A stretch of DNA of 64,000 nt from Bacteroidia bacterium (GTDB lineage: Bacteria; Bacteroidota; Bacteroidia; Flavobacteriales_D; Crocinitomicaceae): positions 62,001 through 126,000 of the forward strand of contig JAUICI010000001.1 in NCBI GenBank assembly GCA_030427935.1, in the 5' to 3' direction. This document shows, in pieces, positions 26,848-47,794 of this stretch (its first letter is position 1; every line of letters starts with the position of its first letter). The position numbers and the translations under genes were made by a program. The notes below the pieces were generated by a model, which was not told where the DNA came from, ran no database searches, and saw only the letters and a list, made by a program, of their open reading frames with translations.

Positions 26848-28152
26848 ATGAGGTACTTTTTTTCTGCTATTATTTTGTTGTTCAGTGGCTTATTACTGGC
26901 TCAACCCGCAAATGATAATTGTGCGGATGCAGAATTCCTTTGTCCAAATGTAACGGTTTCAGGGACTAATGTTGATGCAACTGTTCAAATGTGTGCAGGT
27001 TGCGAAGATTTATTTACGGGTTGTGATATTCATCAAAATACAGTTTGGTATAAATTCAGAACCAACAGTACAGGAGGAATCGTTACAGTTGACTTAGCCA
27101 ATATTGTTTATGTTGTTGAACCAGGGAGAACAGAAGACCTCTATCTATTCGTTTATTCTTTTACGACTGAATGTATTCCGAGTACATACGGAGTCGTATT
27201 CGATTGTTCGATTCCGAATTTTGCTTCAATCGGCGGAGCGAATGCTTTTTCTCTAAATACGGATCCTTTGAATCCGGACACAGAATACTACATAGTAATT
27301 AGCGGTGCAATTGGAGCACTTCCAGGTGAAGCTACTTATGACATTACGGTTTCTGGTCCAGCTGTTGAACGACCAAACCCTACGATTGAAATTACGGCGA
27401 ATGATACTACAATATGTAAAGGAGACTTGGTAACACTTCAAGCGTCGAAAACAGATTGTGTAGTGGATTCCACTTTCATTTGGACCATTAATGGCTCAAT
27501 AGTAGCTACAACTACTGTCGATACATTTCAAACAAACGCCATTAACGACGGCGAATTCGTTGGAGTCTATTCGGTTTGTGATACGATCTGCCAATTAGCA
27601 GTGCCGATTGATTCCATTCAATTCGATGTCTTGGAATTGACTCTGGACGCAGGGGTAGATGAGACGATTTTAGCTGGAGAGTCGGTCATTTTAAGTGGAA
27701 GTACAAACAGCACCAATTTTACTGTTGATTGGGTCCCTGGATCTACTTTAAGTAATTCGACCATACTGGGTCCTGTTGCAACCCCTTCTACTACTACGAC
27801 TTACTTCATGACTATTAACGATACTGTAAACGGTTGTTCGGATTCCGACAGTGTAACAATAACCGTAGACCCAGTTTTGAAAATCCCAGACACCTTTACA
27901 CCGAATGGAGATGGAATTAACGATACATGGGAAATTATAAAAATTGAAGAATATCCAAACTGTGAGATCTTTATATACAATAGATGGGGAAGCGTGGTGT
28001 ACAAAACCATCGGTTATCCTCAGTCTAAATGGTGGAACGGAACAAGTAAAAACGGTAAAGAACTGAGTCCAGGAGCTTACTTTTATTATATAGATTTGAA
28101 AGACCCGGAACATCCTGAACCTTATAGAGGAACAATTAACTTGGTTAGATAG
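26848..28152 (+). CDS. T9SS type-B cargo protein (gliding motility-associated C-terminal domain)
   Basis: 434 residues. Signal peptide ~1-19, then PANDNCADAEFLC and a Cys-rich N-terminal domain (~20-170) with VWYKFRTNSTGG, typical of secreted Bacteroidota proteins. Ig/PKD-like segments follow (~175-340; TICKGDLVTLQAS, AGVDETILAGESVILSGST). The end (~345-434) is a gliding-motility-associated C-terminal domain: IPDTFTPNGDGINDTWEI, EIFIYNRWGSVVYK, W-x-G-TSKNGKELSPGAYFY. Known: this domain directs export by T9SS. Its TAG stop overlaps the GTG start of the next PorP/SprF gene by one base, so the two are surely co-translated. Confidence 0.92.
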   Translation: MRYFFSAIILLFSGLLLAQPANDNCADAEFLCPNVTVSGTNVDATVQMCAGCEDLFTGCDIHQNTVWYKFRTNSTGGIVTVDLANIVYVVEPGRTEDLYLFVYSFTTECIPSTYGVVFDCSIPNFASIGGANAFSLNTDPLNPDTEYYIVISGAIGALPGEATYDITVSGPAVERPNPTIEITANDTTICKGDLVTLQASKTDCVVDSTFIWTINGSIVATTTVDTFQTNAINDGEFVGVYSVCDTICQLAVPIDSIQFDVLELTLDAGVDETILAGESVILSGSTNSTNFTVDWVPGSTLSNSTILGPVATPSTTTTYFMTINDTVNGCSDSDSVTITVDPVLKIPDTFTPNGDGINDTWEIIKIEEYPNCEIFIYNRWGSVVYKTIGYPQSKWWNGTSKNGKELSPGAYFYYIDLKDPEHPEPYRGTINLVR

Positions 28153-29090
28153 TGAAAAAAAGTATACTACTCATAGCATTGATTTCATTATTTGTCTCGA
28201 ACTCCAATTCGCAGCAACTAACTCAGTATTCCCAAACGGTATTTAATCAGTTTAGTTTGAACCCTGCCACCGCGGGTATTAAAAGGTGTATTGATGCCAA
28301 TGTTTCATATAGATTTCAATGGATCGGAATAAGTGGAGCACCTATGAGTGGTTACTTGTCATTCTCCTCAGGGATAAAAACAAAGAATAAAAAATACCTC
28401 GGAGTTAAACACGGAATTGGGGGAATTGTGGAAAGAGATGATATCGGCCATTTTGCTCAAACCAGTTTTAGTGTCGCTTATAGTTTCCAATACAATTTTA
28501 CTAGAGAGTTAAAATTAGCACTGGGATTATCGATGGGAGCTTTCATTTTTGAATTTGACGGAAGCAATGCTAGCACAATAGTAGCTGACCCAAGTATATT
28601 TGGTAAATCAAATAAATTTTATGTTCCGGATGCAGTTTTTGGAATCTGGATGAGTGGAAGAAACTTTTATTTTGGAGCAACCATGAGAAATCTAATCCGA
28701 AATAAGTGGAAAGAAGTCGGGTTCAACTCCAGAATGTTGATGCATTATACAATCAATGGAGGATACAACGCACGCTTTGCTAGCGATCAAATGTCAATTG
28801 TTCCGTCTGTGCTTCTTAGAATCCCACCAAAAGGACCTCTTACAGTGGAATTAAATGTTATGTACAACTATAAGAATTTGTTCAGCGTTGGCCTGCTTTA
28901 TAGATCAATTGATGCCATTGGTGCGATGTTTAGATTCAGGTTTTTGAATTATATGTCCATATCCTATTCTTTTGATTTTGTAACCTCCAAAATGGGGCCA
29001 AATACGGCTTTTACGCATGAGTTTGGAATTGGGTTCTCTACCTGTAAGAGCAAATCCGAAGATCCGTCCGCTTGCCCAACCTTTGAGTAA
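28152..29090 (+). CDS. PorP/SprF family T9SS partner protein
   Basis: 312 residues, GTG start (28152) coupled to the previous stop. Signal peptide ~1-20, then the family hallmark QYSQTVFNQFSLNPATAGI and SYRFQWIGISGAP. Strands through the body (KLALGLSMGAFIFEF, NFYFGATMRNLI, NLFSVGLLYRSIDAIGAMFRF) indicate an outer-membrane barrel. Known: SprF is needed for surface display of SprB, and PorP/SprF proteins bind the C-terminal domains of type-B cargo. It most likely serves the cargo encoded immediately upstream. Confidence 0.93.
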   Translation: MKKSILLIALISLFVSNSNSQQLTQYSQTVFNQFSLNPATAGIKRCIDANVSYRFQWIGISGAPMSGYLSFSSGIKTKNKKYLGVKHGIGGIVERDDIGHFAQTSFSVAYSFQYNFTRELKLALGLSMGAFIFEFDGSNASTIVADPSIFGKSNKFYVPDAVFGIWMSGRNFYFGATMRNLIRNKWKEVGFNSRMLMHYTINGGYNARFASDQMSIVPSVLLRIPPKGPLTVELNVMYNYKNLFSVGLLYRSIDAIGAMFRFRFLNYMSISYSFDFVTSKMGPNTAFTHEFGIGFSTCKSKSEDPSACPTFE

Positions 29091-29243
29091 ATACAACCAT
29101 TTTCTTTCATTTTCCGTATTAATATTGTAAATTACTTTCAAATCAGACATTGTACACAACGTGATGTAAATAATTATCTGTATTAGGAAGAACACTGTTG
29201 CTTGAATAATATAAATTTAACTTACAAACTATTTAAGACCCTA

Positions 29244-32200
29244 ATGAAGAACTCTTTGCTTGCATTATTCTCACTCATTTTTTTCGGTGCTACATACGCT
29301 GGGGAATTTTATTGGGTAGGTAAAAATGGCAACTTCAATAATCCCGAAAACTGGTCGAACACGAGAGGTGGTCAAGGCGGAATTGGTGTTCCTGGAGCTT
29401 CAGATGAAGTATATATTTATTCTTTTCACACCGATCAAATCGAAATTTCAATCTCTTCCAATACTCAAATCGGAGAACTTCATGTTTACGGAAGAAACAA
29501 AATTCATTTTTCGGGGAACAAGACCCTTAAAATCAACAATAAACTGGATATTCACTCCGATATTTCTGGTACAGCAAAAATTTCCCTAGTAGGTTCCAAT
29601 ACACAAGTTGATTTTCATGCGCATAAATTCGAGGCACCTTTTTTCATAAAGGGAAAGGTGACTGTCAATCGAGACATGAACATTGGAAGTGAGGAGTTGA
29701 AAATTGAAAATGGCGGAGAATTAATTGCCAATGGAGTTACAGTGTCTGCTGGAACCATGGAAATTTCTTCAAATTCCTCAGGGCTTGAATTACATCAATC
29801 AACCTTAAACATTTACAATTCATTTGTGGCGACTAATTCATCCCTAATTGATGAATCTGCTAGTTTGATCATGGTACCTGATGGACTAATCCCCCAATTA
29901 ACGACACTTTTTGATGACAGTGATATTTTCTCTTTAACCTTTCCTTGTAGTGGAGGTACAATTACGGCAACGGTTACTTCAGATTACAATGGAAGTCAAA
30001 TTAGTTGTAATGGTGCCTCAGATGGAGAAATTACGGTAACTCTTGCAGGAGTTCCAGGAGGGCCATTTTTATACGATATCTCGCCACCATTAACAACAGA
30101 TTTGGTCGCTGGAAACGTATTTACAGGTTTACCTGCGGGATCTTACTCTTTTAGACTTTTTAATGCTGCTGACTCATCCTTGATTTGTGTAGGTCAAGAA
30201 ATTTTGACAGAACCATTTGTAATTGACCCTCTATTGTTTGAGACAAAACAGGCACTTTGTTATGACTCCTGTAATGCAGAAGTCACGTATCAAATTGTCG
30301 GAGGTACAGCAGGTTTTAATATTGATTTCCCTTTTAGTGGTCAAAATTACCAAGTGGGTGCTACAGTTTTTGGTACGGTTGGAGGTTTGTGTGCAGGTGA
30401 CAATCCATTTACTATCACTGATACAAATGGCTGTTCTTTTTCTGGAAATGTAATTATTACACAACCGGATTCAATTTCAACAACATTTACTTCTCAAGAC
30501 CCTCTTTGTAATGGTGATTGTAATGGTTGGATTGCAACGCAGCCTTCAGGAGGTAATGGATCTAATTATACATTTGACTGGACACCGGGTAACCCAATCG
30601 GTGATGGAACAGATTCGATTTCATCTCTTTGTGCAGGAACTTATACAGTTCGAATCGAGGATGACTCTACTTGTTTTAATATATTTTCGCATACCATTAA
30701 TAACCCACCGATTTTTCAGGCTCAAACGACCAACCCAGTAGACATTTTATGTTTTGGTGCATGTGATGGTTCAATTACCGCTCTACCACTAAATGGAACA
30801 GGCCCTTATTCTTTTGAATGGATTGATGCCACAAATAACCCAATCGGAAATACAGACTCCATTGCTACAGGTTTATGTCCGGGAGATTATCGAGTGGTTG
30901 TCACCGATGCCAATGGATGTGTGGATACGACTTCTGTGGTTACCTTAACTGAGCCAACAGATTTAAATGTAACTGCAACCGAAAACCAACCTTCTTGTTA
31001 TGGTATTTTTGATGGATCAGCAATTGCAAACCCAACAGGAGGAACAACTCCTTATACATTTCAATGGGTAAATGATGGAACAGGCGCTCAAATAGGCGCA
31101 AATCAAACGATCAATGGTTTAGGCCCAGGAGATTATTATGTTATTGTTACGGATTCAAATAATTGTCAAGATTCTTCTGCAATTTTCACTTTAATTTGGC
31201 CAGATTCCATTGTAATTACACTTACTCCTTATGATCCCACTTGTTATGATATTTGCAATGGTTCTGTAGGAGCCGTGGTAACAGGAGGAACAGGACCTTA
31301 TACTTTTACTTGGTCTCCAGGCAATCCTGCAGGTCAGGGAACAGATTCCATTACCAATTTATGTCCGGGTTCTTATGACTTATTAATAGAAGACTTTAAT
31401 AATTGTACCGAAACTGAATCAGCAACAGTTAATCCTGTAGCCCAATATGATTTAACAATTAATTCAAGTGACCTTACGTGTAACGGTGCAGCTGATGGAA
31501 CTATTGATGTTACAGTAAATTCCGGAGCAGATGGCGGTCCTTACACCATTACATGGGTACCTGTTCCACCAGCCGGACAGCAAGGAAACTTTAACTTAAC
31601 TGGATTGTCAGCCGGAACTTGGGTTGCAACAATTGAGGATGGTTTGGCTTGTGACACGACAATTCAAATTGTATTAAATCAACCAAACTCTATTGATGTA
31701 ACGGCTTCTGTAAGTTCAAATGCTACTTGTAATGGGGATTGCAATGGTTCAGCCACATCAGTGGTTACTGGTGGTCAAGGAACTGTTCTTTATTCATGGG
31801 ACGATCCTCTTAATCAGACAACACCTGGTGTTAATGGACTTTGTGCCGGACAATACATTGTAACCGTTACGGATTCCGCATTGTGTACAGATAGTGATAC
31901 AATTCTTATCACAGAACCTAATCAAATTACATTCGATACATCTTCAACTGTTGTTTCATGTTGGAATATCTGTGATGCAACTGCAACAGTTTCAAATTTA
32001 AATGGAGGGACAGGAGCATTATCGGTTCAATGGATGGACCCTCTATTACAAAATACTCCAACTGCGACAGGACTCTGCACAGGGCCAGTTGATGTAACAA
32101 TTTCAGATTTAAATGCCTGTGATACGACGATTACAATTTTAATCCCAACGCCAACTGCAATTCTTGCACCAATAAGCAATAATGCTGGTGCTTGTTTTGG

Positions 32201-35200
32201 GACTTGTACAGGTGAAGGCTACTTGGATATTTCTGGTGGTATTCCCGGTTATACCGTAAATTGGTTCAATGCAGGAAATGGTGTAAACCTAGGTGTAAAT
32301 AACGACACAATAACAGGTCTATGCCCAGGAGATTATACTGCTACAGTGGAAGATGCTGCTGGCTGTATTTTAGATGCAGACACCATTACAATAATTGAAT
32401 TACCAGATCTTACGATTACATTAAACTCTTCAGTGGATGCCACATGCGGACTGTGTGATGGTCAAGCTGATGTATCTGCTGCAGGGGGAACAGGACCACT
32501 TGTGATTACATGGTCTCCGGCTCCCGCGAGTGGACCAAACGGGAATACTAAGAATGATTTATGTGAAGGAATTTATACAGTTACGGTAACTGATTCGGCA
32601 GGTTGTACAGATTTTGTAACAGTTACGATCAACGGAATTGCAAATGAGAATATTACGATGGACTCAACCGCAACTTCTTGTTATAACACTTGCGATGGAA
32701 CCGCAACTGCAAATTATGCATGTATTGTCCCACCTTGTACAATTACTTGGTTTGATGATATGGGAGCTCCAATTGGTCAGACAGGCGATGTAGCTTCCAA
32801 TCTATGCCCAGGAACCTACACAGCACAACTTGAAAACGGAGGTGGTTGTTTTGCTTTTCAAACGGTAACTATTGATGCACCTGATACAATTAATGTTTCA
32901 GTTAACACATTCTCGAATCCAACGTGTAATGGTATTTGCGATGGTGAAATTGACCTTACTCAAACCGGAGGAGTAGCTCCTCTTACAACTACGTGGACAC
33001 CTGCTCCTTTAGCTGGACAAGGAACAAGTCATGCTCAAGGATTGTGTGCAGGTTGGAATGTATATGTTGTGGAAGATGTTAATGGTTGTCAGTATATTGA
33101 TAGCCTTGAGTTAATTGATAACCCGCCTCTAGATGTAAGTAATTTTAATACTGCCGATATTTCTTGCTTCGGGGCTAATGACGGACAAGCTTCTGTCGCT
33201 CCTGTTGGAGGGGTACCTAATTATACAATTGAGTGGTTTACTTGTGCGGGTGTAAATACTGGAGTTACTGGTCCTCTTGCAAATGGATTACCTGCAGGAA
33301 GTTATTATGCCCAGGTTACGGATGCTGCCGGTTGTGTTCAATTAACGCCATGTGATAGTGTAAGGGATAAAACTCCACTTACTCTTACAATTGATTCCAA
33401 TAGTGTGAGTTGTTCAGGTAACTGTGATGGACAATTAATGGCATCAATTTCCGGAGGAACACCGAATTATTTCTATCAATGGCTAGATCAAAACCAAGAC
33501 ACAATTCCGGGAGAAACAAATGACACCTTATTTAATATTTGTTCAGGAACTTTCTTTTTAAGAGTATCTGATCAAAATGCATGTGATACGACCTATGGGC
33601 CATTTACGCTGCAAGCACCAACTCCATGGGATGTTACGATTACATCAGATTCAGCAACTTGTAATGGAATTCCAGATGGTTCAGGAACGGTAACTGTAAA
33701 TGCGGGGAATACAGGGCCTTACACTTATGCTTGGGTTCCTGGAGGGTTTAGTAATCCAACTGCTGCGCCTATTGCTGCTGGAGTTTACGATGTGACAATA
33801 ACCGATGCTTCAGGAGTTTGTGATACAACCGTTCAGGTTGAAATTCTTGAACCGGATCCTTTAATGTTTAATCCAAATATTACCCAAATTTCTTGTTTCG
33901 ACCAATGTGACGGAGAGATTGATTTAAGTGCTGTCACTGGAGGAACACCAAGTTACACTTACTTATGGGATGGGTTGCCAGGTGGAAATACCTTATCTAA
34001 CCAATGTGCCGACACTTTCAATATTAGAGTGATTGATGGGAATGCGTGTTTTAAGGATACGACTATCATATTAGATGAGCCATCTGAGATTCTTGCAAAT
34101 TTACTCACAAACATGGCTACATGTAATGTTTGTAACGGATCGGCATCTGCCAATCCAACTGGTGGATCAGGAAATTATAATTACGCTTGGAGTCCAGCTC
34201 CAATTACCGGACAAGGAACTCAAAATGTTACGGATTTATGTCCAAATGTATATTCTGTAATTGTTACTGATGACAATGGTTGTGCGGATACTAGTTCCTT
34301 TATTATTGACAACGTCAACGCAGACACATTAACTATGTCGGCAGATTCAGCATCTTGTTTTGGAGTGTGTGACGGTCAGGCTTATGTGTCTTTTAATTGT
34401 TCTGTTCCGAACTGTACTGTCGATTGGTTCTTCAATAATACTTTCAATAACTTAGGAATCCCTGATACCACGGTTCAAAATGCATGTGCTGGAGTTTATT
34501 TCGCAGTAGTTACAAATGGAGCAGGATGTGTTAGTATTGACAGCGTTTCTGTGTTTGAACCAGACGAAATTTTATCAAACGACTCGATAACACCACCAAC
34601 TTGTTTTAATGGTTCAGACGGACAAATTATTGTTAGCCCTTCTGGAGGTTCGGGAGCGGGATACAATTTTAACTGGACACCTGCACCTGGAGGAGGCCAA
34701 GGTACCGATACCGCAACAGGCTTGACTCCTGGAGACTGGATAGTGGACATTACAGACTCGGATGGCTGTACAGAAACGGATACGATAACAGTTCCAAATT
34801 CAATTGAAATTTTGTTCACCATGTCTTCAACGAATGTTTCTTGTAATGGTGCATGTGATGGGACAGGAACTGTAAGTGCCACAGGTATTGCTCCTTTAAC
34901 TTATCAATGGTATAATGGAGGGGTTTTAATGCCAGGAGAAACTAACCCGAATATTTTTGGTCTATGTCCTGGAACTTACTACGTTGAAATAACGGATGAT
35001 GCTGGTTGTACAATTCAATCTACAGATATTATCATAACTGAACCAAATATATTGTCTGATGCATTAGACTCTCTAAGAGAGCCTCTTTGTAATGGTGATT
35101 GTAATGGGATGATCGACATTTCAATCTCTGGAGGAACTTCACCATATACAATTAATTGGTTTGATGGAGGTGGTGGCTTAATAGGTCAGTCGGATACAGT

Positions 35201-38168
35201 TGCGACAGGACTATGTGCAGGAGATTACTATGCTGAAATTACGGATAGTAATGGATGTATGATTACGACACCAATATATACACTAAATGAACCAACACCA
35301 TTAGTAGTTAGTTTGACGGCAGAACCGAATTCTTGTTTTGGAACATGTGATGGTTATATTGTTGCCACAACATCAGGAGGGACAACACCTTATGCGTGGA
35401 CGTTTACAGATACTTTGAACAATCTACTTCCTAATACTATTAACGACAGTACTTTTAATCTGTGTACAGGGACTTATAATTTAGAAGTTACTGATTCGAA
35501 TGGATGTACCTTCGGACCACAACAGGTGTTCCTACAATCTCCAAGTGAGATTACGGCAAACACCTATTCGAATGATGCTACTTGTGGTTTAGCTGATGGA
35601 GACGCCACAGTTCAAATGGTAACAGGTGACGCACCGTTTGTTTACCAATGGATGGATGCCACATTTACACCATTGGCTGGAGAGGATTCATCTACGATTT
35701 TGAACGTTGGAGCAGGAACATTTTATGTGGAAGTAACGGATAGTAATGGATGTACGGAACAATTTTCAGTGAATGTTTCAAACCCAGTTGCAACAACTTT
35801 AGTATGGGACAGCTTAGTTACACCTACTTGTAATGGAGATTGCAATGGTTCAATTTCAATTACTGCAACAGCTGTTACTCCACCTTTAGCCTATCTATGG
35901 AATCCTGGAGGAATTACGGATGAGGATCCAACGGGATTATGTGCAGGTAATTATACCGTTCAATTAACAGATGGAGCGGGTTGTATTAATTTCTACGATA
36001 CGACACTTGTTGACCCACCAGTCATTCAAAATAACTTTAATATCACGGCTCCTACTTGTGGACTTTGTGATGGAGACATTGTGTCTAATGTAACGGGTGG
36101 AATAGCTCCTTTGAATCTTTCTTGGTCCAACGGTGACTCAGGAATTAGCACGGATTCAATTTGTGCGGGAGTTTATGATTTGGTTGTTGTAGATGCCATA
36201 GGTTGTCAGCAGACTTTTAACGCAACCGTTTCCAATCCAAATGGTTTAGTTGGCATGAATGAAACGATTACTCCTGAGACTTGTTTTGGAACTTGCGATG
36301 GATCAATTACAATTTCTCCAACTGGCACAGCAACACCTTATACAGTATTTTGGCTTCATGATGGAAGTAGCTCTTCAACGCTATCTAATTTATGTGCAGG
36401 GGATTATTTTGTGCAGGTTTCCGATACGAACAACTGTACAGAAACACAGATGTTTAGCGTTTCTTCTCCAACTGAGATTGTAGCAACAGCTGACATCATC
36501 CCACCAACGTGTGGTAATTCAGATGGATCAATCACTATTAATTCCAGTGGTGGTGCACTACCGCATATGTATTCTTGGAATTCAGGTGAGTTGACGCAAG
36601 GAATTATCAATAAGGCTGCAGGTATTTATATCTGTACAATTACAGATGATAATGGATGTACAGATTCAATTACAGTTCCACTTGCAAATGGAGATGGCCC
36701 ATCAGTTGAAGTAGATTCTTCATCGATCTCTTGTTTTGGTGATTGTGATGGACAATTAAATGCAACAGCTTCTAATGGTAACCCAGCATACAGTTATATA
36801 TGGTATGATGAATTTGGTGCACCAATTGGTCAAACGGATTCTTTTGCTCTAAACCTTTGTGAGGGCAACTATATTGTTGAAGTAACAGATGCTTCTGGAT
36901 GTATTGGATTTGGGGCCTCTGTTGTAGAAGATGTTGACACACTTATTGCAAGTTTGCCAGTAGTTTCTGATATATCTTGTTTTGGATCATGTGACGGTCA
37001 AATTAACTATATCGTTTCAGGAGGAACTCAACCATATGCTTATAGTTGGAATGATCCAGGGAACTCAACAGATTTAAATGCAGATAGTCTCTGTGCTGGA
37101 ACGTATACGGTAGTTATAACAGATGCAAATGGATGTACCATTACTGACTCAGCTACTGTAGTAGAGCCAACTGAAATTGTAATCACTCTTGATTCAACAG
37201 TGATTGCTACCTGTGTGAATTCTCCTGATGGGGAGATTTACATCAGCGTTTCTGGAGGAACTCCAGGTTATACTTATTTATGGAATTCAGAAGACCTCTC
37301 TTTCACTGATACAACTGAAGATTTGACCGGATTATTCCCAATGAATTATTACCTTGAAGTAACAGATGCGAGCGGTTGTACGGTTTATGATACAATCGCA
37401 GTAGACACCAATCTAGTTTTGATTGCAAATGCCGGAAACGATACAATTATTTGTGATCAATCTCAAATTCAATTAACAGGTTCAGTTACTGCAACCGGAC
37501 CAGTTACAGTAGAATGGACAGATAGTTTGGGAACTATTTTATCTGATAGTTTAATTATGATCGATAACCCTTCAGTTGGTGTTACGATGTATATCTTCAC
37601 AGTTTCTCAAGGCGTATGTACCTCGACAGACACTGTATATGTTACTGTTGCAGCGCCATTTACTGTCGATGCAGGTGCAGATCAGCAAATTTTACTTGGC
37701 CAATCAACAACTATTGGAGGCTCACCAACAGGCCCAGATAGTACAACGATTGCATGGACGCCAACAATATTCTTGACAGACTCTACGGCAAGTAATCCAA
37801 ATGTATTCGAACCGCAACAAACTACGCAATATGTCGTATATGTAACTGATACTAATGGATGTGTCTATTCGGATTCTGTAATTGTTGAAGTGGTACCGGA
37901 CATCATTATCATTAATGGGTTTACACCAAATGGTGATGGGGTAAATGATGTTTGGGAACTAGACTTCGCTATTTACTTTCCGGATATTGAGGTATTTGTT
38001 TACAACCGATGGGGTGAAGAATTATTCAGATCTTCAGGGTATGCGGTACCTTGGGATGGAAAGTATAAAGGTAAAGATTTACCGGTTGGAACCTATTACT
38101 ATATAATACAACTAAATGATGTCAACTATCCTGATCCATTTGCAGGACCGGTTACAATTATGAGATAA
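29244..38168 (+). CDS. Giant SprB-like adhesin with 31 SprB repeats and T9SS type-B domain
   Basis: ~2974 residues from the ATG at 29244 (MKNSLLALFSLIFFGATYAG signal peptide); a TTG at 29202 gives a longer but unlikely start. Residues ~20-245 carry FYWVGKNGNFNNPENWSNTRGG and a beta-helix-like stretch. Residues ~250-2720 hold 31 repeats of ~80 residues (Cys-x-G-x-Cys-D/N-G ... GGT-x-PY-x-x-x-W ... LCPGxYxVxVTDxNGC). PKD-like segments lie at ~2720-2885. The last ~90 residues are the gliding-motility C-terminal domain (INGFTPNGDGVNDVWEL, VFVYNRWGEELF, PVGTYYYII). Known: SprB is the mobile adhesin of gliding flavobacteria. Followed after 1 bp by a PorP/SprF gene. Confidence 0.95.
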   Translation: MKNSLLALFSLIFFGATYAGEFYWVGKNGNFNNPENWSNTRGGQGGIGVPGASDEVYIYSFHTDQIEISISSNTQIGELHVYGRNKIHFSGNKTLKINNKLDIHSDISGTAKISLVGSNTQVDFHAHKFEAPFFIKGKVTVNRDMNIGSEELKIENGGELIANGVTVSAGTMEISSNSSGLELHQSTLNIYNSFVATNSSLIDESASLIMVPDGLIPQLTTLFDDSDIFSLTFPCSGGTITATVTSDYNGSQISCNGASDGEITVTLAGVPGGPFLYDISPPLTTDLVAGNVFTGLPAGSYSFRLFNAADSSLICVGQEILTEPFVIDPLLFETKQALCYDSCNAEVTYQIVGGTAGFNIDFPFSGQNYQVGATVFGTVGGLCAGDNPFTITDTNGCSFSGNVIITQPDSISTTFTSQDPLCNGDCNGWIATQPSGGNGSNYTFDWTPGNPIGDGTDSISSLCAGTYTVRIEDDSTCFNIFSHTINNPPIFQAQTTNPVDILCFGACDGSITALPLNGTGPYSFEWIDATNNPIGNTDSIATGLCPGDYRVVVTDANGCVDTTSVVTLTEPTDLNVTATENQPSCYGIFDGSAIANPTGGTTPYTFQWVNDGTGAQIGANQTINGLGPGDYYVIVTDSNNCQDSSAIFTLIWPDSIVITLTPYDPTCYDICNGSVGAVVTGGTGPYTFTWSPGNPAGQGTDSITNLCPGSYDLLIEDFNNCTETESATVNPVAQYDLTINSSDLTCNGAADGTIDVTVNSGADGGPYTITWVPVPPAGQQGNFNLTGLSAGTWVATIEDGLACDTTIQIVLNQPNSIDVTASVSSNATCNGDCNGSATSVVTGGQGTVLYSWDDPLNQTTPGVNGLCAGQYIVTVTDSALCTDSDTILITEPNQITFDTSSTVVSCWNICDATATVSNLNGGTGALSVQWMDPLLQNTPTATGLCTGPVDVTISDLNACDTTITILIPTPTAILAPISNNAGACFGTCTGEGYLDISGGIPGYTVNWFNAGNGVNLGVNNDTITGLCPGDYTATVEDAAGCILDADTITIIELPDLTITLNSSVDATCGLCDGQADVSAAGGTGPLVITWSPAPASGPNGNTKNDLCEGIYTVTVTDSAGCTDFVTVTINGIANENITMDSTATSCYNTCDGTATANYACIVPPCTITWFDDMGAPIGQTGDVASNLCPGTYTAQLENGGGCFAFQTVTIDAPDTINVSVNTFSNPTCNGICDGEIDLTQTGGVAPLTTTWTPAPLAGQGTSHAQGLCAGWNVYVVEDVNGCQYIDSLELIDNPPLDVSNFNTADISCFGANDGQASVAPVGGVPNYTIEWFTCAGVNTGVTGPLANGLPAGSYYAQVTDAAGCVQLTPCDSVRDKTPLTLTIDSNSVSCSGNCDGQLMASISGGTPNYFYQWLDQNQDTIPGETNDTLFNICSGTFFLRVSDQNACDTTYGPFTLQAPTPWDVTITSDSATCNGIPDGSGTVTVNAGNTGPYTYAWVPGGFSNPTAAPIAAGVYDVTITDASGVCDTTVQVEILEPDPLMFNPNITQISCFDQCDGEIDLSAVTGGTPSYTYLWDGLPGGNTLSNQCADTFNIRVIDGNACFKDTTIILDEPSEILANLLTNMATCNVCNGSASANPTGGSGNYNYAWSPAPITGQGTQNVTDLCPNVYSVIVTDDNGCADTSSFIIDNVNADTLTMSADSASCFGVCDGQAYVSFNCSVPNCTVDWFFNNTFNNLGIPDTTVQNACAGVYFAVVTNGAGCVSIDSVSVFEPDEILSNDSITPPTCFNGSDGQIIVSPSGGSGAGYNFNWTPAPGGGQGTDTATGLTPGDWIVDITDSDGCTETDTITVPNSIEILFTMSSTNVSCNGACDGTGTVSATGIAPLTYQWYNGGVLMPGETNPNIFGLCPGTYYVEITDDAGCTIQSTDIIITEPNILSDALDSLREPLCNGDCNGMIDISISGGTSPYTINWFDGGGGLIGQSDTVATGLCAGDYYAEITDSNGCMITTPIYTLNEPTPLVVSLTAEPNSCFGTCDGYIVATTSGGTTPYAWTFTDTLNNLLPNTINDSTFNLCTGTYNLEVTDSNGCTFGPQQVFLQSPSEITANTYSNDATCGLADGDATVQMVTGDAPFVYQWMDATFTPLAGEDSSTILNVGAGTFYVEVTDSNGCTEQFSVNVSNPVATTLVWDSLVTPTCNGDCNGSISITATAVTPPLAYLWNPGGITDEDPTGLCAGNYTVQLTDGAGCINFYDTTLVDPPVIQNNFNITAPTCGLCDGDIVSNVTGGIAPLNLSWSNGDSGISTDSICAGVYDLVVVDAIGCQQTFNATVSNPNGLVGMNETITPETCFGTCDGSITISPTGTATPYTVFWLHDGSSSSTLSNLCAGDYFVQVSDTNNCTETQMFSVSSPTEIVATADIIPPTCGNSDGSITINSSGGALPHMYSWNSGELTQGIINKAAGIYICTITDDNGCTDSITVPLANGDGPSVEVDSSSISCFGDCDGQLNATASNGNPAYSYIWYDEFGAPIGQTDSFALNLCEGNYIVEVTDASGCIGFGASVVEDVDTLIASLPVVSDISCFGSCDGQINYIVSGGTQPYAYSWNDPGNSTDLNADSLCAGTYTVVITDANGCTITDSATVVEPTEIVITLDSTVIATCVNSPDGEIYISVSGGTPGYTYLWNSEDLSFTDTTEDLTGLFPMNYYLEVTDASGCTVYDTIAVDTNLVLIANAGNDTIICDQSQIQLTGSVTATGPVTVEWTDSLGTILSDSLIMIDNPSVGVTMYIFTVSQGVCTSTDTVYVTVAAPFTVDAGADQQILLGQSTTIGGSPTGPDSTTIAWTPTIFLTDSTASNPNVFEPQQTTQYVVYVTDTNGCVYSDSVIVEVVPDIIIINGFTPNGDGVNDVWELDFAIYFPDIEVFVYNRWGEELFRSSGYAVPWDGKYKGKDLPVGTYYYIIQLNDVNYPDPFAGPVTIMR
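30000..37400 (+). repeat. 31 SprB repeats (~240 bp unit) in the giant adhesin
   Basis: Manual count from the Cys-x-x-x-C/x-D/N-G signatures: 31 units with a mean spacing of ~80 residues. DNA identity between units is low, so the array is old rather than a recent expansion. Some units have a single Cys (CGLCDG, CGNSDG) or lack the second Cys (CFGANDG, CNGIPDG). Confidence 0.85.
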
Positions 38169-38169
38169 A

Positions 38170-39093
38170 ATGAAGAGGCTTTTAATTATCATATTACTTG
38201 TTATTGCTGGGAAGTCACATTCTCAACAACTGCCTCAGTATACGCAATATTTATTCAATCTATATGCGATCAATCCTGCATTCGGAGGGTTTAAACCACA
38301 TTGGTCTGCAACATTTAATCAAAGATACCAATGGTCTGGTGTAACCGATGCACCACGTACTTTTACTTTTACGGCAGAAGGACCTTTCAAAAAGCTCAAC
38401 ATGGGTATGGGTGGACTTGTATTTGCAGATATGGTTGGACCCACAAGAAGAATCGGCGCGCAGGTATCTTACGCTTATCATTTCAAACTACACGAAAAAG
38501 TAAAACTTTCACTTGGGATTTCCTTAGGCTTTTCACAATGGGTAGTAGACGGAGATAAGATTACTATAAAAGATCCTAATGATCCACTGCTGAATAGTGG
38601 TAGAATTTCCTCAAATAATTTTGATGGAAAGGCTGGGTTAGTTCTCTATGGGGATAATTGGTATTTCGGGTTTTCAGCACCTCAATTGTTTCAAAACACG
38701 ATGAGGTTTTGGCAAGACTCTTCCAAAACTCTCTCAGTCATGGAGGATCACTATTTCTTTAATGGAGCTTACGCTTTTAGATTACATGAAGATTGGGAAT
38801 TGGAACCCTCCTTTATGTTAAAGCTAGCGGTACCGGCTCCAATTAGGCTTGACGTTTTTGCAAGAGCCATTTGGAAAAATCAATTGTGGTTCGGTGTTGG
38901 TTACAGAATGAAACATGCTTGGACAGCTATGGTCGGTTACAACATTAAAGAGCGAATCGCGATAGGCTATTCCTATGATTATGATTTCAACGATTTGAAA
39001 CGGGTGAGCTCAGGCACACATGAAATCATGCTCAAAGTTCAGTTTGCCAAATACAAGCAAACATCTGAAACCAATGCCAAATTAGACCAATAG
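38170..39093 (+). CDS. PorP/SprF family T9SS partner of the giant adhesin
   Basis: 307 residues. Signal peptide ~1-18 (LLIIILLVIAGKSHSQ), then the hallmark QLPQYTQYLFNLYAINPAFGG and NQRYQWSGVTDAPRTF. Barrel strands include KLSLGISLGFSQWVVD, NWYFGFSAPQLFQN and LWFGVGYRMKHAWTAMVGYN. It starts one base after the adhesin stop. In flavobacteria the sprB-sprF pair has the same order, so surface display of the adhesin is the likely job. Confidence 0.93.
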   Translation: MKRLLIIILLVIAGKSHSQQLPQYTQYLFNLYAINPAFGGFKPHWSATFNQRYQWSGVTDAPRTFTFTAEGPFKKLNMGMGGLVFADMVGPTRRIGAQVSYAYHFKLHEKVKLSLGISLGFSQWVVDGDKITIKDPNDPLLNSGRISSNNFDGKAGLVLYGDNWYFGFSAPQLFQNTMRFWQDSSKTLSVMEDHYFFNGAYAFRLHEDWELEPSFMLKLAVPAPIRLDVFARAIWKNQLWFGVGYRMKHAWTAMVGYNIKERIAIGYSYDYDFNDLKRVSSGTHEIMLKVQFAKYKQTSETNAKLDQ

Positions 39094-41422: not shown

Positions 41423-43303
41423 ATGAAAAAAGGTTACTTATTATTGCCTGCTTTTCTTATCGGTACTGCTTTTGCTCAACAAAATGTTGATGGACCAGCA
41501 GTTCTAGGAGAGAAGAAAGCATTATCTAAGACTGAATTCATGCCAAGATCGGCTTTCAATTCAGGAAACAGAGCACCTGGTGATGTTATTACTGGTACTG
41601 CTGAATCATTCTCATCGATTGGTTCATGGACTACAAGTGGAGACGGATCTTCAGGGGGAACTTATAACCCAGCAGCTCTTTGGTTACACGATACTGATGG
41701 ACCAAACGGATATTATTCAAGCACTCAGGACATCATCAATTCACCAACTCAAAATGATGGATTCATGATTCTTGATGGAGATTATTTTAATGGTCTTGGT
41801 GGACCTCCTGCTTCGGTAGAGGATTACAATGCCAATTTGGTTTCTCCAGTATATGATTTGTCTACTTACTCGAATGTTACATTGACATTCTGGCATTCAT
41901 ATAGATTATGTTGTTCTTCTGCAGAACCACAACTATGGGTTGATGTTTCTACAGATAACTTCTCAAACATTCTTGCGACTTATGATGTAACTTATTCTGA
42001 TGCTCCAATTAACGTTGCATCTGGAACAAGACAACACTACATCAATATTACAAACGCTATTGCAGCTGGTACTCCAGCAACAGCGCAGTTCAGATTTAGA
42101 TGGGGAACTAGTGGTTCTACAAACAATGCTTCTCACTATTACTGGCAAATTGATGATGTAGCTCTTTTAGAGTCATACACAAACCACGGACAGTTGGATA
42201 CATTGAACTGGTCTGCTGATGTTACTAACTTTGGTAACTTCGGAGGATTCCAAAAAATTCCTTCGTATGCTGCTGGTGCAACAACACTGACTTGGTCAGG
42301 ATACATGAACAACATTGGTGCAGGTAACTGGACGAATGCACAGTTGAAAGTTGATCAAAACGGTTCTGCTTTTGCTACTTCTACTGGAGAAGCAGTGAAC
42401 GGTGGTTCTATGTCAACTCTTCACGAAGCTGGAGCAACTATGCCAACAGCTACTGGAGTTTACACTTACGATATCTATGGAATTGCGGATCAAACAATGG
42501 ATTTGATGGATACTGCGACTTTCCAAATCGAAGTTACGGATAATGAGTATTCTACTGGTGGATCTGTACAAACAGGTATCCAATCAGGAACTAACTGGGT
42601 ATGGAACACTCCTCCAGTAAGAGTAGGTTTCGGTGGTGAAGTTATCATGACTGCTGCTAACGAAGTAATCAACGGTGTAAGTACTGTATTCCAAGATACT
42701 TCTTTGAACGCTTTCGCGCCAATGGAAGTTGTAATCCTTGTTAACGGAACTGAAGTTGCTACTAAGCAATTTACTGTTGACGGAGCAAACATGGGAACTC
42801 CACAAGTAGTTTATTTAGATAACCAAGTTCAGCTTCAAGCTGGAGACGTTGTTGACTACTTAGTAGTGGATTCAGATGCTGAAGGAAGATTCGTTGAGTC
42901 TGGAACTGACGCTTACCACATTGGTCTTTTGGTTACTTATGATGGATCTAACGTAATGTCTGGTCCTTTCTTAGAAGCACCAGCAATGATGTCTATGATC
43001 ACAGCTGAAGGTTTTGTTTCTGTTGATGAGAACGAAGGTTCAATCAACACTTTAGCTCAAAACTGGCCAAACCCATTCGATAACAACACAATGATCAAAT
43101 TTACTTTGGCGAACAACGAAATGTGTTCTTTCGAAGTTGTTGATGTAACTGGTAAAGTTGTGAAGTCTATCGATCTTGGATCAAGAGGAGCTGGACAGCA
43201 CCAAATCGAATTGAATGCAAATGAGTTTAACAAAGGAATTTATTTCTATACTCTTACTGCAGGAGATTCTAAAATGACTAAGAAAATGGTTGTTACTAAG
43301 TAA
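41423..43303 (+). CDS. T9SS type-A secreted protein, paralogue 1 (codon-biased, likely abundant)
   Basis: 626 residues. Signal peptide ~1-18 ending TAFAQQ. Residues ~50-260 form a jelly-roll/MAM-like domain: DGSSGGTY, LWLHDTDGPNGYYSS, DGFMILDGDYFNGLGG, LVSPVYDLS and YRLCCSS with a Cys-Cys pair, ending in HYYWQIDDVALLE. A second beta-rich region (~370-515) has TGIQSGTNWVWNTPPVRVGF. The last ~80 residues are a type-A sorting domain: NWPNPFDNNTMIKF, VVDVTGKVVKSIDLG, GIYFYTLTAGDSKMTKKMVV. It uses C-ending codons (AAC, TTC, TAC) far more than its two paralogues. Function unknown; probably secreted and abundant. Confidence 0.9.
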   Translation: MKKGYLLLPAFLIGTAFAQQNVDGPAVLGEKKALSKTEFMPRSAFNSGNRAPGDVITGTAESFSSIGSWTTSGDGSSGGTYNPAALWLHDTDGPNGYYSSTQDIINSPTQNDGFMILDGDYFNGLGGPPASVEDYNANLVSPVYDLSTYSNVTLTFWHSYRLCCSSAEPQLWVDVSTDNFSNILATYDVTYSDAPINVASGTRQHYINITNAIAAGTPATAQFRFRWGTSGSTNNASHYYWQIDDVALLESYTNHGQLDTLNWSADVTNFGNFGGFQKIPSYAAGATTLTWSGYMNNIGAGNWTNAQLKVDQNGSAFATSTGEAVNGGSMSTLHEAGATMPTATGVYTYDIYGIADQTMDLMDTATFQIEVTDNEYSTGGSVQTGIQSGTNWVWNTPPVRVGFGGEVIMTAANEVINGVSTVFQDTSLNAFAPMEVVILVNGTEVATKQFTVDGANMGTPQVVYLDNQVQLQAGDVVDYLVVDSDAEGRFVESGTDAYHIGLLVTYDGSNVMSGPFLEAPAMMSMITAEGFVSVDENEGSINTLAQNWPNPFDNNTMIKFTLANNEMCSFEVVDVTGKVVKSIDLGSRGAGQHQIELNANEFNKGIYFYTLTAGDSKMTKKMVVTK

Positions 43304-43886: not shown

Positions 43887-45782
43887 ATGAGAAAGATCTA
43901 CTTATTGGTGGCAGCTTGTCTGTCACTGGGAGCCGTCCAAGCCCAACAAAATCAAGATGGACCAACAAAGCAAAATTTTAAACTAAATCCTAACCGATCC
44001 ATTCATCAGTTAAGAAATTTATCCTTCGGAGGATCCAGGTGCACGCAGAATGTTTTAGAATCTGAAACATTTGCAAACCCGTTTTCAAATGGATGGACAA
44101 CGGATGGAGCAGGTTCTTCAGGCGGAACTTATTCTGCGGCTGATCTCTGGCTATATGATACTGACGGGCCAAATGGATTTTTTTCCCTCCCACAGGAAAT
44201 CATAACATCTTCTTCAGCTAGTGATGGATTTATGATTCTGGATGCCGATTATTTTAATGGTTTAGGTGGTTTTCCGGCAACAGTGGAAAGCTATCATGCG
44301 GAATTAATTTCGCCGGTTTATGACCTTTCATCGGTATCAAATGTGACCATTTCATTTGAACATGCCTACCGATTGTGTTGTGATCCAAGCCAGGAGAACT
44401 TATTTGTAGAAGTGTCTACAGATGGTTTTTCAAATGTACATGGATCTTGGGTTGTTTCTAATGATGTTCCTATGAACGATGCTCCAGGAACTATCAAGAA
44501 ATACATCAATATTACTAATGCAATTCAAGGAAACCCATCCAATGTACAAATCCGTTTTCGTTTCGGAATTGAAAACTCAACTGGAAATGCTTCCCATTAT
44601 TGGTGGCAATTGGATGATTTGACCATCTTTGAGTCCTATGAGCATCACGCTGAATTGGATACGGTAGCTTGGTCAGATAATGCTTCAGGATACGGCACAT
44701 TCGGAGGTTTTGGAAAAATTCCAGCTCATGATGCTGCGGTTACTACATTGGATTGGTCAGGATACCTTAAAAACTTAGGTTCATCGAACTGGACAGATGC
44801 TAAACTTGAGGTTCTTGAGAATGGAAACCCGTTTGCTCAGAGTGCAAGTCAAAATGTACCTGTTGATTCGTATTCAAATATATTCATAGCTTCTGCACAG
44901 ATGGCATCAACAATTGGAACCAATACTTATTCTATTTTTGGAACAGACACGGCTCAAATGTGTGTAATGGATACGGCTACTTATGAAATTGAAGTTACAC
45001 AAGATGCCTGGTCTGCTGGCGGATCGACCATTACTGGAATTCAATCTGGAAGCAATTGGGATTGGAATACTCCACCTGTAAGAGTTGGGTTTGGTGGAGA
45101 AGTGAATATTATCACACCTTCCACGGAATATATTGTAGGAGCACGATGGGCAATGCAAGACACTTCTTTAAATGATTTTGCACCAATAGAGATCATCATT
45201 TTGGTTAATGGGACTGAAGTGCAATCAACCAATGTTAATGTAGACCCTTCGTTGTATGGAGGCTACCAACATGTTTCATTTTCAACTCCAATTCCTGTTC
45301 AATCTGATGATGTTGTAGATTATCTAGCAGTGGATAGTGACGGGGAAGCTCGATTTTACGCTGCAGGTTCGTCAAACGAACAAATTGGATTATTAGTGAC
45401 TTTTGATGGTGCAAATGTAATGTCAGGACCATTTTTGGAATCACCAATTTTAATGGAAATCATCGTATGTGAGGATACAGCACAATGTGCAACCCTGTCT
45501 ATTGAAGAGAATCATCAATCAATCGGATCCTTAGACCAAAACTACCCAAACCCATTCGATCAAAACACGGTCATAAATTTCAACTTGAAATCAAATGAAA
45601 CTTGTTTATTCGAAGTGAGAGATGTAACAGGTAAGCTTGTTAAAAGCTTAGATTTAGGTATTCAAAGTGCAGGTCAGCACCAAATCGAATTGAACTCAAA
45701 CGAATTTGGTGAAGGAATCTATTTCTATACTTTGTATGCAGGAGAGACTTCCATGACCAAGAAAATGATTGTACTCAAATAA
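43887..45782 (+). CDS. T9SS type-A secreted protein, paralogue 2
   Basis: 631 residues. Signal peptide ~1-19 ending VQAQQ. Same domain order as paralogue 1: jelly-roll/MAM-like domain with AGSSGGTY, LWLYDTDGPNGFF, YRLCCDPS and HYWWQLDDLTIFE; then TGIQSGSNWDWNTPPVRVGF; then the type-A sorting domain (NYPNPFDQNTVINFNL, GKLVKSLDLG, GEGIYFYTLYAG). The final ~240 bp are almost identical in DNA to paralogue 3. It carries a Cys pair shortly before the sorting domain (IIVCEDTAQCATLS) that the others lack. Confidence 0.9.
   Translation: MRKIYLLVAACLSLGAVQAQQNQDGPTKQNFKLNPNRSIHQLRNLSFGGSRCTQNVLESETFANPFSNGWTTDGAGSSGGTYSAADLWLYDTDGPNGFFSLPQEIITSSSASDGFMILDADYFNGLGGFPATVESYHAELISPVYDLSSVSNVTISFEHAYRLCCDPSQENLFVEVSTDGFSNVHGSWVVSNDVPMNDAPGTIKKYINITNAIQGNPSNVQIRFRFGIENSTGNASHYWWQLDDLTIFESYEHHAELDTVAWSDNASGYGTFGGFGKIPAHDAAVTTLDWSGYLKNLGSSNWTDAKLEVLENGNPFAQSASQNVPVDSYSNIFIASAQMASTIGTNTYSIFGTDTAQMCVMDTATYEIEVTQDAWSAGGSTITGIQSGSNWDWNTPPVRVGFGGEVNIITPSTEYIVGARWAMQDTSLNDFAPIEIIILVNGTEVQSTNVNVDPSLYGGYQHVSFSTPIPVQSDDVVDYLAVDSDGEARFYAAGSSNEQIGLLVTFDGANVMSGPFLESPILMEIIVCEDTAQCATLSIEENHQSIGSLDQNYPNPFDQNTVINFNLKSNETCLFEVRDVTGKLVKSLDLGIQSAGQHQIELNSNEFGEGIYFYTLYAGETSMTKKMIVLK
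45651..45773 (+). repeat. 123-bp exact repeat in a T9SS sorting domain, copy 1
   Basis: Identical to 47663-47785 over 123 bp. Around it, identity stays high (about ten differences over the final ~240 bp) and then falls sharply upstream. Confidence 0.9.
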
Positions 45783-45807
45783 ATAAACGATAAACCTAAT
45801 CTATTTT

Positions 45808-45844
45808 TAGCCCCGTTTTACTAAGGTAGAATGGGGCTATTTTT
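45808..45844 (+). terminator. Terminator of T9SS paralogue 2
   Basis: TAGCCCCGTTTTAC pairs with GTAGAATGGGGCTA (two G-T wobbles) around a TAAG loop, followed by TTTTT. Confidence 0.9.
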
Positions 45845-45907
45845 ACTGATTCGTATTTTTATGAATAATACTTAAATTAGCATTGATTTACCTTTAAAAT
45901 ATATTGT

Positions 45908-47794
45908 ATGAAAAAAATCTACTTTTTATTCTCAGCCCTTTTATGTGTTGGTACTCTTTTTTCTCAATTTCAAGAAGAAGGACTGGTTCATCACAAACTT
46001 GAAGGAAGCCTACACAAATCTTATTATCAGCCACGAAATCAAATTCAAGCAGGCTCAAGGTGTATTCAAAATATTCACTATTCGGAAACATTTGCAAATC
46101 CTTTTTCTAATGGTTGGACAAGAACAGGAGATGGTTCGTCAGGTGGGACTTATCTTCCTGTGGATATTTGGTCGCATGATTTTAATGGTCCAAACGGCTA
46201 TTATTCATCTCCTTTTGAAATGATCAACTCGCCATCTCAATCAGATGGATTCATGATTCTTGATGCGGATTTTTTAAACGGACAAGGAAGCCAACCAACA
46301 ATGCCAGAAACATTTCAGGCAGAATTAGTTTCCCCAGTTTATGATTTATCAGGAATTTCAAGTGTTTCAATCTCTTTTTATCACATGTATCGATTGTGTT
46401 GTGGACTTGGACAGGATCATTTGTATTTCGAGGTGTCAACAGATGGTTTTGTGAATGTAGCTGCTACTTATATTCTAGACGATCCTTTTATTCCCATAAA
46501 CGCTGGATCAGGTACGATCCAAGAATTTTTTAATATAACAGATGATATCGTTGGAGACCCTTCAAATGTCCAATTTAGATTCAGATGGGGGATAGGTGGA
46601 TCAACCAATAATAATTCACACTATTATTGGCAAATTGATGATATGGTCCTGTATGACTCTTATTCTCATCATGCTTTAATTGATTCTTTAGGGTGGACAC
46701 CTTCTTTGGCTGCATATGGTCCATACAACGGGTTTCAGCAAATGCCATCATATATGGCAGCAACGACCAATTTGGCTTTTACGCTATCTGCTTCAAATAT
46801 TGGATACGCTGATTGGACAAATGCGCAAATAAATCTTGCCGAAAATGGTCAAGTTATTGCCCAAAGTGCATCTACTTTTGTTCCTTCAGGTGGTTCTGCT
46901 CAGTTCACAGTTTCTTCTTTGATGAACTCACAAATAGGCACATATTTGTACGAACTTTACGGGACAGACACTGCCACTTTTTGCAATGCTGACACCGTGC
47001 AAACAATAATTGAGATTACCCCTGATTATTACTCCGCAGGAGGAACAATTCCTACAGGAATTCAAGCGGCTTCCAATTGGAACTGGGTAAATTATCCTGC
47101 AAGAATTGGGTTTGGAGGTAAACTATATAACACTTACACAGGGTCTATACCCAAATATATCACCGGTGTTCGCGTAGCATTTGAGGACACCACTACCAAT
47201 GATTTTGCACAAATGGAAGCACAGATTTTTATCAATGGAAATCTAATTGCTTCTGAAAACTTTGTTGTTGATGTAAATGCCTATGGAACTTTGCAACAAG
47301 TTGATTTTGCCTCACCAATTGGCGTGTCAAATGGGGATGTAATTGATTATTTAATATTTGACAATAATGCACAAGTAAGATTTATTGATGCGGGAGATGT
47401 GTTTTTTCATCGTGGATTAATGGTCACTTTTGATGGAGGAGGTCAGATGTCTGGTCCGTATTTAGAAAGCCCAATAATGGCTGGTATCATTTTAAATGAA
47501 GGGGCGAATATAAATTCAATTGATGAAACTACAATCCACACCTTTGACCAAAACTATCCAAATCCATTCGATCAAAACACGGTCATAAATTTCAACTTGA
47601 AATCAAATGAAGCTTGTTTATTCGAAGTGAGGGATGTAAAGGGTAAGCTTGTTAAAAGCATGGATTTAGGTATTCAAAGTGCAGGTCAGCACCAAATCGA
47701 ATTGAACTCAAACGAATTTGGTGAAGGAATCTATTTCTATACTTTGTATGCAGGAGAGACTTCCATGACCAAGAAAATGATTGTATTGAAATAA
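45908..47794 (+). CDS. T9SS type-A secreted protein, paralogue 3
   Basis: 628 residues. Signal peptide ~1-19 (FLFSALLCVGTLFSQ). Jelly-roll/MAM-like domain with GDGSSGGTYLPVDIW, GPNGYYSSPFEMINSP, YRLCCGLG and HYYWQIDDMVLYD; second region TGIQAASNWNWVNYPARIGFG (reduced similarity: the NTPPVR of the others is NYPAR); then a sorting domain almost identical to paralogue 2. AT-ending codons dominate, unlike paralogue 1. It has its own terminator. Function unknown. Confidence 0.9.
   Translation: MKKIYFLFSALLCVGTLFSQFQEEGLVHHKLEGSLHKSYYQPRNQIQAGSRCIQNIHYSETFANPFSNGWTRTGDGSSGGTYLPVDIWSHDFNGPNGYYSSPFEMINSPSQSDGFMILDADFLNGQGSQPTMPETFQAELVSPVYDLSGISSVSISFYHMYRLCCGLGQDHLYFEVSTDGFVNVAATYILDDPFIPINAGSGTIQEFFNITDDIVGDPSNVQFRFRWGIGGSTNNNSHYYWQIDDMVLYDSYSHHALIDSLGWTPSLAAYGPYNGFQQMPSYMAATTNLAFTLSASNIGYADWTNAQINLAENGQVIAQSASTFVPSGGSAQFTVSSLMNSQIGTYLYELYGTDTATFCNADTVQTIIEITPDYYSAGGTIPTGIQAASNWNWVNYPARIGFGGKLYNTYTGSIPKYITGVRVAFEDTTTNDFAQMEAQIFINGNLIASENFVVDVNAYGTLQQVDFASPIGVSNGDVIDYLIFDNNAQVRFIDAGDVFFHRGLMVTFDGGGQMSGPYLESPIMAGIILNEGANINSIDETTIHTFDQNYPNPFDQNTVINFNLKSNEACLFEVRDVKGKLVKSMDLGIQSAGQHQIELNSNEFGEGIYFYTLYAGETSMTKKMIVLK
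47663..47785 (+). repeat. 123-bp exact repeat in a T9SS sorting domain, copy 2
   Basis: Identical to 45651-45773. See that entry. Confidence 0.9.

Follow-up and report, generated by a model that had tools for sequence, protein, structure and literature searches.

We found that two neighbouring genes for predicted T9SS cargo proteins, here called B and C, carry an almost identical C-terminal sorting domain on strongly diverged bodies, and gene conversion between them confined to this domain is well supported. B and C are very probably old tandem paralogues between which, after the silent sites of their bodies had saturated and after the split from a sister species, about 222 bp of sorting-domain DNA were copied, in one direction or the other, by gene conversion without crossover, presumably of the RecA type.

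Gene layout and predicted products

The window, the 64,000-nucleotide stretch of DNA analysed here, contains three genes, A, B and C (Table 1), that are homologous over their full length. Judged from their sequences, they are tandem paralogues, each with a predicted C-terminal T9SS type A sorting domain (CTD; TIGR04183 / PF18962, Por_Secre_tail). B and C both score 39.3 bits against PF18962 (cut-off 27), and they score 43.1 and 41.9 bits, respectively, against TIGR04183 (cut-off 23); their products are predicted to be secreted surface proteins. A search for a solved relative of the gene body found none. With a mean pLDDT of 44.5, the structure model of C is of low quality as a whole, and from it we used the CTD strands at residues 558–626 and the preceding low-confidence stretch at residues 531–555 only. 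In this poor model the strands start at residue 558, and the converted tract appears to coincide with the CTD.

The whole genome G000 (3.9 Mb) has more than 110 stretches above the PF18962 cut-off, one of which (C288) contains an internal stop. Elsewhere in the window, positions 29187–39093 contain an adhesin-like gene and, behind it, a gene of the PorP/SprF family (TIGR03519). The adhesin-like product has 2988 aa and a T9SS type B sorting domain (TIGR04131). Another PorP/SprF gene (28149–29090) lies immediately upstream of the adhesin-like gene. By their predicted domains, the adhesin-like gene and PorP/SprF represent the known pairing of a type B cargo with its shuttle.

Table 1 Coordinates in the window of the three cargo genes and of the segments shared among them
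Feature	Position	Strand	Remarks
Gene A, first T9SS type A cargo paralogue (predicted)	41423..43303	+	PF18962 47.1 bits; CTD outside converted tract
Gene B, second T9SS type A cargo paralogue (predicted)	43887..45782	+	Orthologue present in G001, the sister species
Gene C, third T9SS type A cargo paralogue (predicted)	45908..47794	+	Missing from the sister-species locus
Likely converted tract in B	45552..45773	+	222 bp, six mismatches to C
Counterpart of this tract in C	47564..47785	+	
123-bp run identical in B and C, B copy	45651..45773	+	
123-bp run identical in B and C, C copy	47663..47785	+	
CAGCACCAAATCGAATTGAA, 20 bp common to A, B and C inside the CTD	45675..45694	+	Possible recombination anchor
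CCAAACCCATTCGAT, 15 bp (PNPFD codons) common to A and B at the 5' border of the tract	45546..45560	+	

A near-identical tail on diverged bodies

Over their final 249 nt, B and C show ten differences (45545, 45551, 45600, 45620, 45628, 45629, 45648, 45650, 45774 and 45776 in B coordinates), and the two CTDs are 95.6% identical in DNA. Besides the 123-bp run there is a second identical run, of 48 bp, at 45552–45599. The original prediction had described a near-identical final stretch of about 240 bp, with some ten differences and 123 bp exact, behind clearly diverged upstream parts, and had set the third paralogue apart by its tail DNA; each of these descriptions was borne out. Upstream of the CTD, the DNA identity of B and C is 52–68% per block of 40 codons, and their bodies show about 58% DNA identity, with saturation at silent sites, and 48% amino acid identity. 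Gene A is 68–70% identical to B and to C in the tail region. The six mismatches inside the tract fall within 51 bp, a clustering that has P = 0.002 when counted per base and is weak (P = 0.03) when counted per codon; it may mark a mosaic, or a second and older tract.

At silent sites, 119 of 249 codons are identical between B and C in the body (0.48) and 73 of 77 in the CTD (0.95), and the surplus in the CTD has a Fisher P of 1.1e-15. Identical four-fold sites number 42 of 127 upstream and 23 of 24 in the CTD. A permutation scan located 68 identical silent codons out of 69 between codons −76 and −3 from the end, at P = 0.002, which is the floor of 500 permutations. Synonymous divergence is thus decisively unequal along the pair. 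This step, together with the sister-species comparison below, supports the recent gene conversion that had been proposed from the letters of the sequence: silent identity is high within a sharply bounded tract, outside which the paralogues have diverged.

Borders of the tract

The similarity begins, on its 5' side, at the codons for PNPFD, which include the PNPF motif characteristic of this type A CTD, and the linker upstream of the CTD differs between the two genes. It ends two codons before the stop, at a leucine encoded by CTC in B and by TTG in C, and the 60 nt 3' of the genes are unlike (21/60 identical). Each gene therefore keeps its own flanks on both sides of the tract, which is the mark of an exchange without crossover.

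An unequal crossing-over or a partial tandem duplication within the array could have produced C as a hybrid with the tail of B. The two genes are direct repeats about 2 kb apart, which suits such an event, and in a related pair from another genome (L238) the similarity continues beyond the stop codon (58/60), as expected of one. A single crossover, however, would have carried the 3' spacer of B along, and the spacers of B and C are dissimilar; moreover, the tract stops before the stop codon. As C has its own sequence on either side of the tract, it is better explained by a two-sided exchange without crossover than by unequal crossing-over, which we consider very unlikely here.

Comparison with the sister species

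The locus in the sister species is syntenic and consists of orthologues of A (81% amino acid identity), of the small membrane protein and of B (62%) and then the amidase, without C. Over the body, B is closer to its orthologue than to C (60% versus 48% amino acid identity). Within the tract this is reversed, and the paralogues B and C are closer than the orthologues (0.956 versus 0.687 nucleotide identity). The CTD of the B orthologue is 68.7% identical in DNA to B and 68.3% to C, and the CTDs of B and C are thus equally far from it, as they are from A. Since the CTDs of B and C agree so much better than those of B and its orthologue, while the bodies show the opposite order, the copying is younger than the species split. 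Body and CTD trees leave the order of B, its orthologue and C unsettled, with formal clade tests below significance, and a scan of genome contigs for close relatives gave distant matches only.

Gene A and its orthologue (L081) are unusually alike at silent sites, with a silent identity of 0.70 in the body and 0.85 in the CTD (p = 0.007 for CTD versus body), other genes being near 0.5. High expression or exchange between species is perhaps the cause of this likeness, and some local constraint may act on the CTD of A.

Purifying selection that extends to silent sites, through RNA structure or codon use, might keep the CTDs of B and C alike without any exchange. The CTD is a predicted functional export signal, and the raised silent identity in the CTD of A versus its orthologue would agree with such selection. 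Against this, the CTD of B is saturated relative to its own orthologue (5 of 16 four-fold sites identical), and the silent sites of the CTD are saturated likewise between C and that orthologue and between A and B. Between the genome of the window and the sister species, 26 pairs of CTD genes are reciprocal best hits. Their four-fold sites have an identity of 0.48 in the CTD versus 0.40 in the body, and in protein sequence the CTD is often less similar than the body. As the CTD is not specially conserved across these pairs, a general silent constraint does not explain B and C. In addition, point mutations in the CTD of RgpB revealed no side chain indispensable for export (cited in PMC11285876), so that the identity of the B and C CTDs need not be selected and the swap between them may be neutral. 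Selection in place of exchange is, on this evidence, highly improbable.

We give as little credence to an artefact of assembly or strain mixture. The genome is a draft of 289 contigs and was judged from the assembled sequence, but B and C lie on one 127-kb contig with ten differences between their tails and unique flanks on both sides of both copies, and comparable cases occur in further assemblies, one of which (G004, with L235) consists of a single contig.

Exchange of CTDs is local in this genome

With the tail of B as a DNA query, the whole assembly returned A, B and C alone. We also compared the CTDs of 106 ORFs in this genome. The 5,515 non-neighbour pairs reach a nucleotide identity of at most 0.586 (mean 0.454), and the 17 neighbour pairs include identities of 0.96 (B/C), 0.88 and 0.83. 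As CTDs that are not neighbours are never alike, and the tail of B occurs nowhere beyond the three genes, CTD exchange in this genome is local, with homogenised CTDs between tandem neighbours only. The cassette-like replacement that had been suggested as an alternative to gene conversion hence holds locally, between tandem neighbours, and fails as a dispersed cassette. Insertion of a dispersed mobile CTD cassette behind both genes, of which two neighbour pairs elsewhere with shared CTDs and no detectable body homology (L235 and L249) are reminiscent, is extremely improbable given that A, B and C are homologous along their full length and that the tail is absent from the rest of the genome; it was rejected for this genome, where no near-identical copies stand behind unrelated genes.

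A candidate mechanism

In the gene conversion that we favour, B and C would have arisen as tandem paralogues whose bodies then diverged until their silent sites were saturated. Later than this, and later than the species split, about 222 bp of CTD DNA would have been copied between them by homologous recombination without crossover, presumably dependent on RecA. Short identical stretches encoding the CTD motifs PNPFD and AGQHQIEL probably seeded the exchange as anchors, since the diverged bodies retain almost no longer identity: in B and C, the longest identical run there is at most 14 bp, whereas all three genes have 20 bp in common inside the CTD. Conserved motifs may thus be almost the sole start points for strand exchange between diverged neighbours, although A and C do have one common run of 22 bp in the body. 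Recurrent conversion between neighbouring cargo genes would lead to concerted evolution of their CTDs while the bodies diversify.

Homogenised CTDs at other loci

We examined 101 same-strand neighbouring CTD gene pairs, taken from CTD-rich clusters in related genomes and hence not a random sample, some of them plain recent duplicates. In 13 of these the DNA identity of the CTDs is 80% or more, and several of the 13 have bodies that have diverged strongly. One pair from the same genome as B and C (L113) has bodies with 45% amino acid identity and CTDs with 85% amino acid and 86% nucleotide identity; compared with its sister orthologue, the body is at 56% and the CTD at 44%, the same conflict as in B and C. 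In other genomes of the order, tracts at the 3' end were also seen in L224 (60/67 silent codons identical, bodies 36%), in L239 (42/43 silent codons) and in L238, where all 69 silent codons agree and the bodies are 25% identical in amino acids. The continuation of the L238 similarity past the stop codon suggests a different and larger event than that in B and C. The two L238 genes (G049:C66, 6267–8927 and 11634–14603) share 227 nt of CTD at 99.6%. The homogenised tract is not always the CTD: in L124 and in L082, a recent duplicate with 222/222 silent codons identical, it extends further upstream, and in L086 and L252 it peaks upstream of the CTD or lies partly outside it.

There are 43 pairs without detectable body homology, and two of them have CTDs that are at least 70% identical (83% and 75%) together with raised silent identity, namely L235 (silent 48/58) and L249 (silent 38/56). 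In L235 (G004:C1:394300-400800) the adjacent ORFs 3996–5258 (420 codons) and 5305–6003 (232 codons) share 182 nt of CTD at 93%, and capture of the CTD through a partial duplication is possible.

The recurrence was seen at other loci and in other genomes, and not at the B/C locus, where the sister species lacks C. A general, CTD-focused process is plausible. More tentatively, and with somewhat less than even confidence, we suggest that, throughout the order, neighbouring T9SS cargo genes undergo concerted evolution of their CTDs. The tag would be repeatedly overwritten, sometimes between unrelated bodies, and each locus would thereby retain a common tag while its bodies diversify or are replaced. 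Each genome of this group has roughly a hundred cargo genes with a CTD. Should the tags of neighbours be overwritten again and again, CTD similarity would be unusable for the history of a cargo or of its pairing with a shuttle, and conversion would be a simple way for a new body to gain a working export tag. The recurrence and the two neighbour pairs without body homology make a systematic survey worthwhile.

Relation to known systems

The B/C tract is real and the conversion behind it recent; conversion of this kind is known, and its occurrence in a T9SS sorting domain is apparently new. Our search of the open literature, outside which most subscription journals lie, for T9SS together with gene conversion, concerted evolution or domain shuffling found no conversion of a CTD. 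Among T9SS cargo genes, rgpA, kgp and hagA of Porphyromonas gingivalis have identical repeat segments and exchange domains (PMC5266723). The exchange reported for them involves domains of the adhesin and catalytic type as well as alleles from different strains, whereas in B and C a CTD is exchanged between neighbours; in the passages of that source that we consulted, a CTD-confined conversion between diverged neighbours was not found for the gingipain and HagA genes.

Exchange of segments between tandem paralogues, as in B and C, is known from the T7SS immunity genes esaG and tipC, which swap segments via short conserved blocks, one of them at the 3' end (PMC9484751). Those are immunity genes of Firmicutes, compared over many strains and with frequent changes in copy number, and the exchange in B and C is two-sided. 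The babA/babB and homA/homB genes of Helicobacter pylori are, like B and C, paralogous surface-protein genes; they show concerted evolution at the 3' end, their 3' segments being more alike within than between strains while the 5' or middle parts diverge (PMC3960876). The shared part in H. pylori belongs to the outer-membrane protein itself, whereas in B and C it is a separate T9SS sorting domain, and, unlike babA/babB, two of the related CTD cases join this shared domain to bodies without detectable homology.
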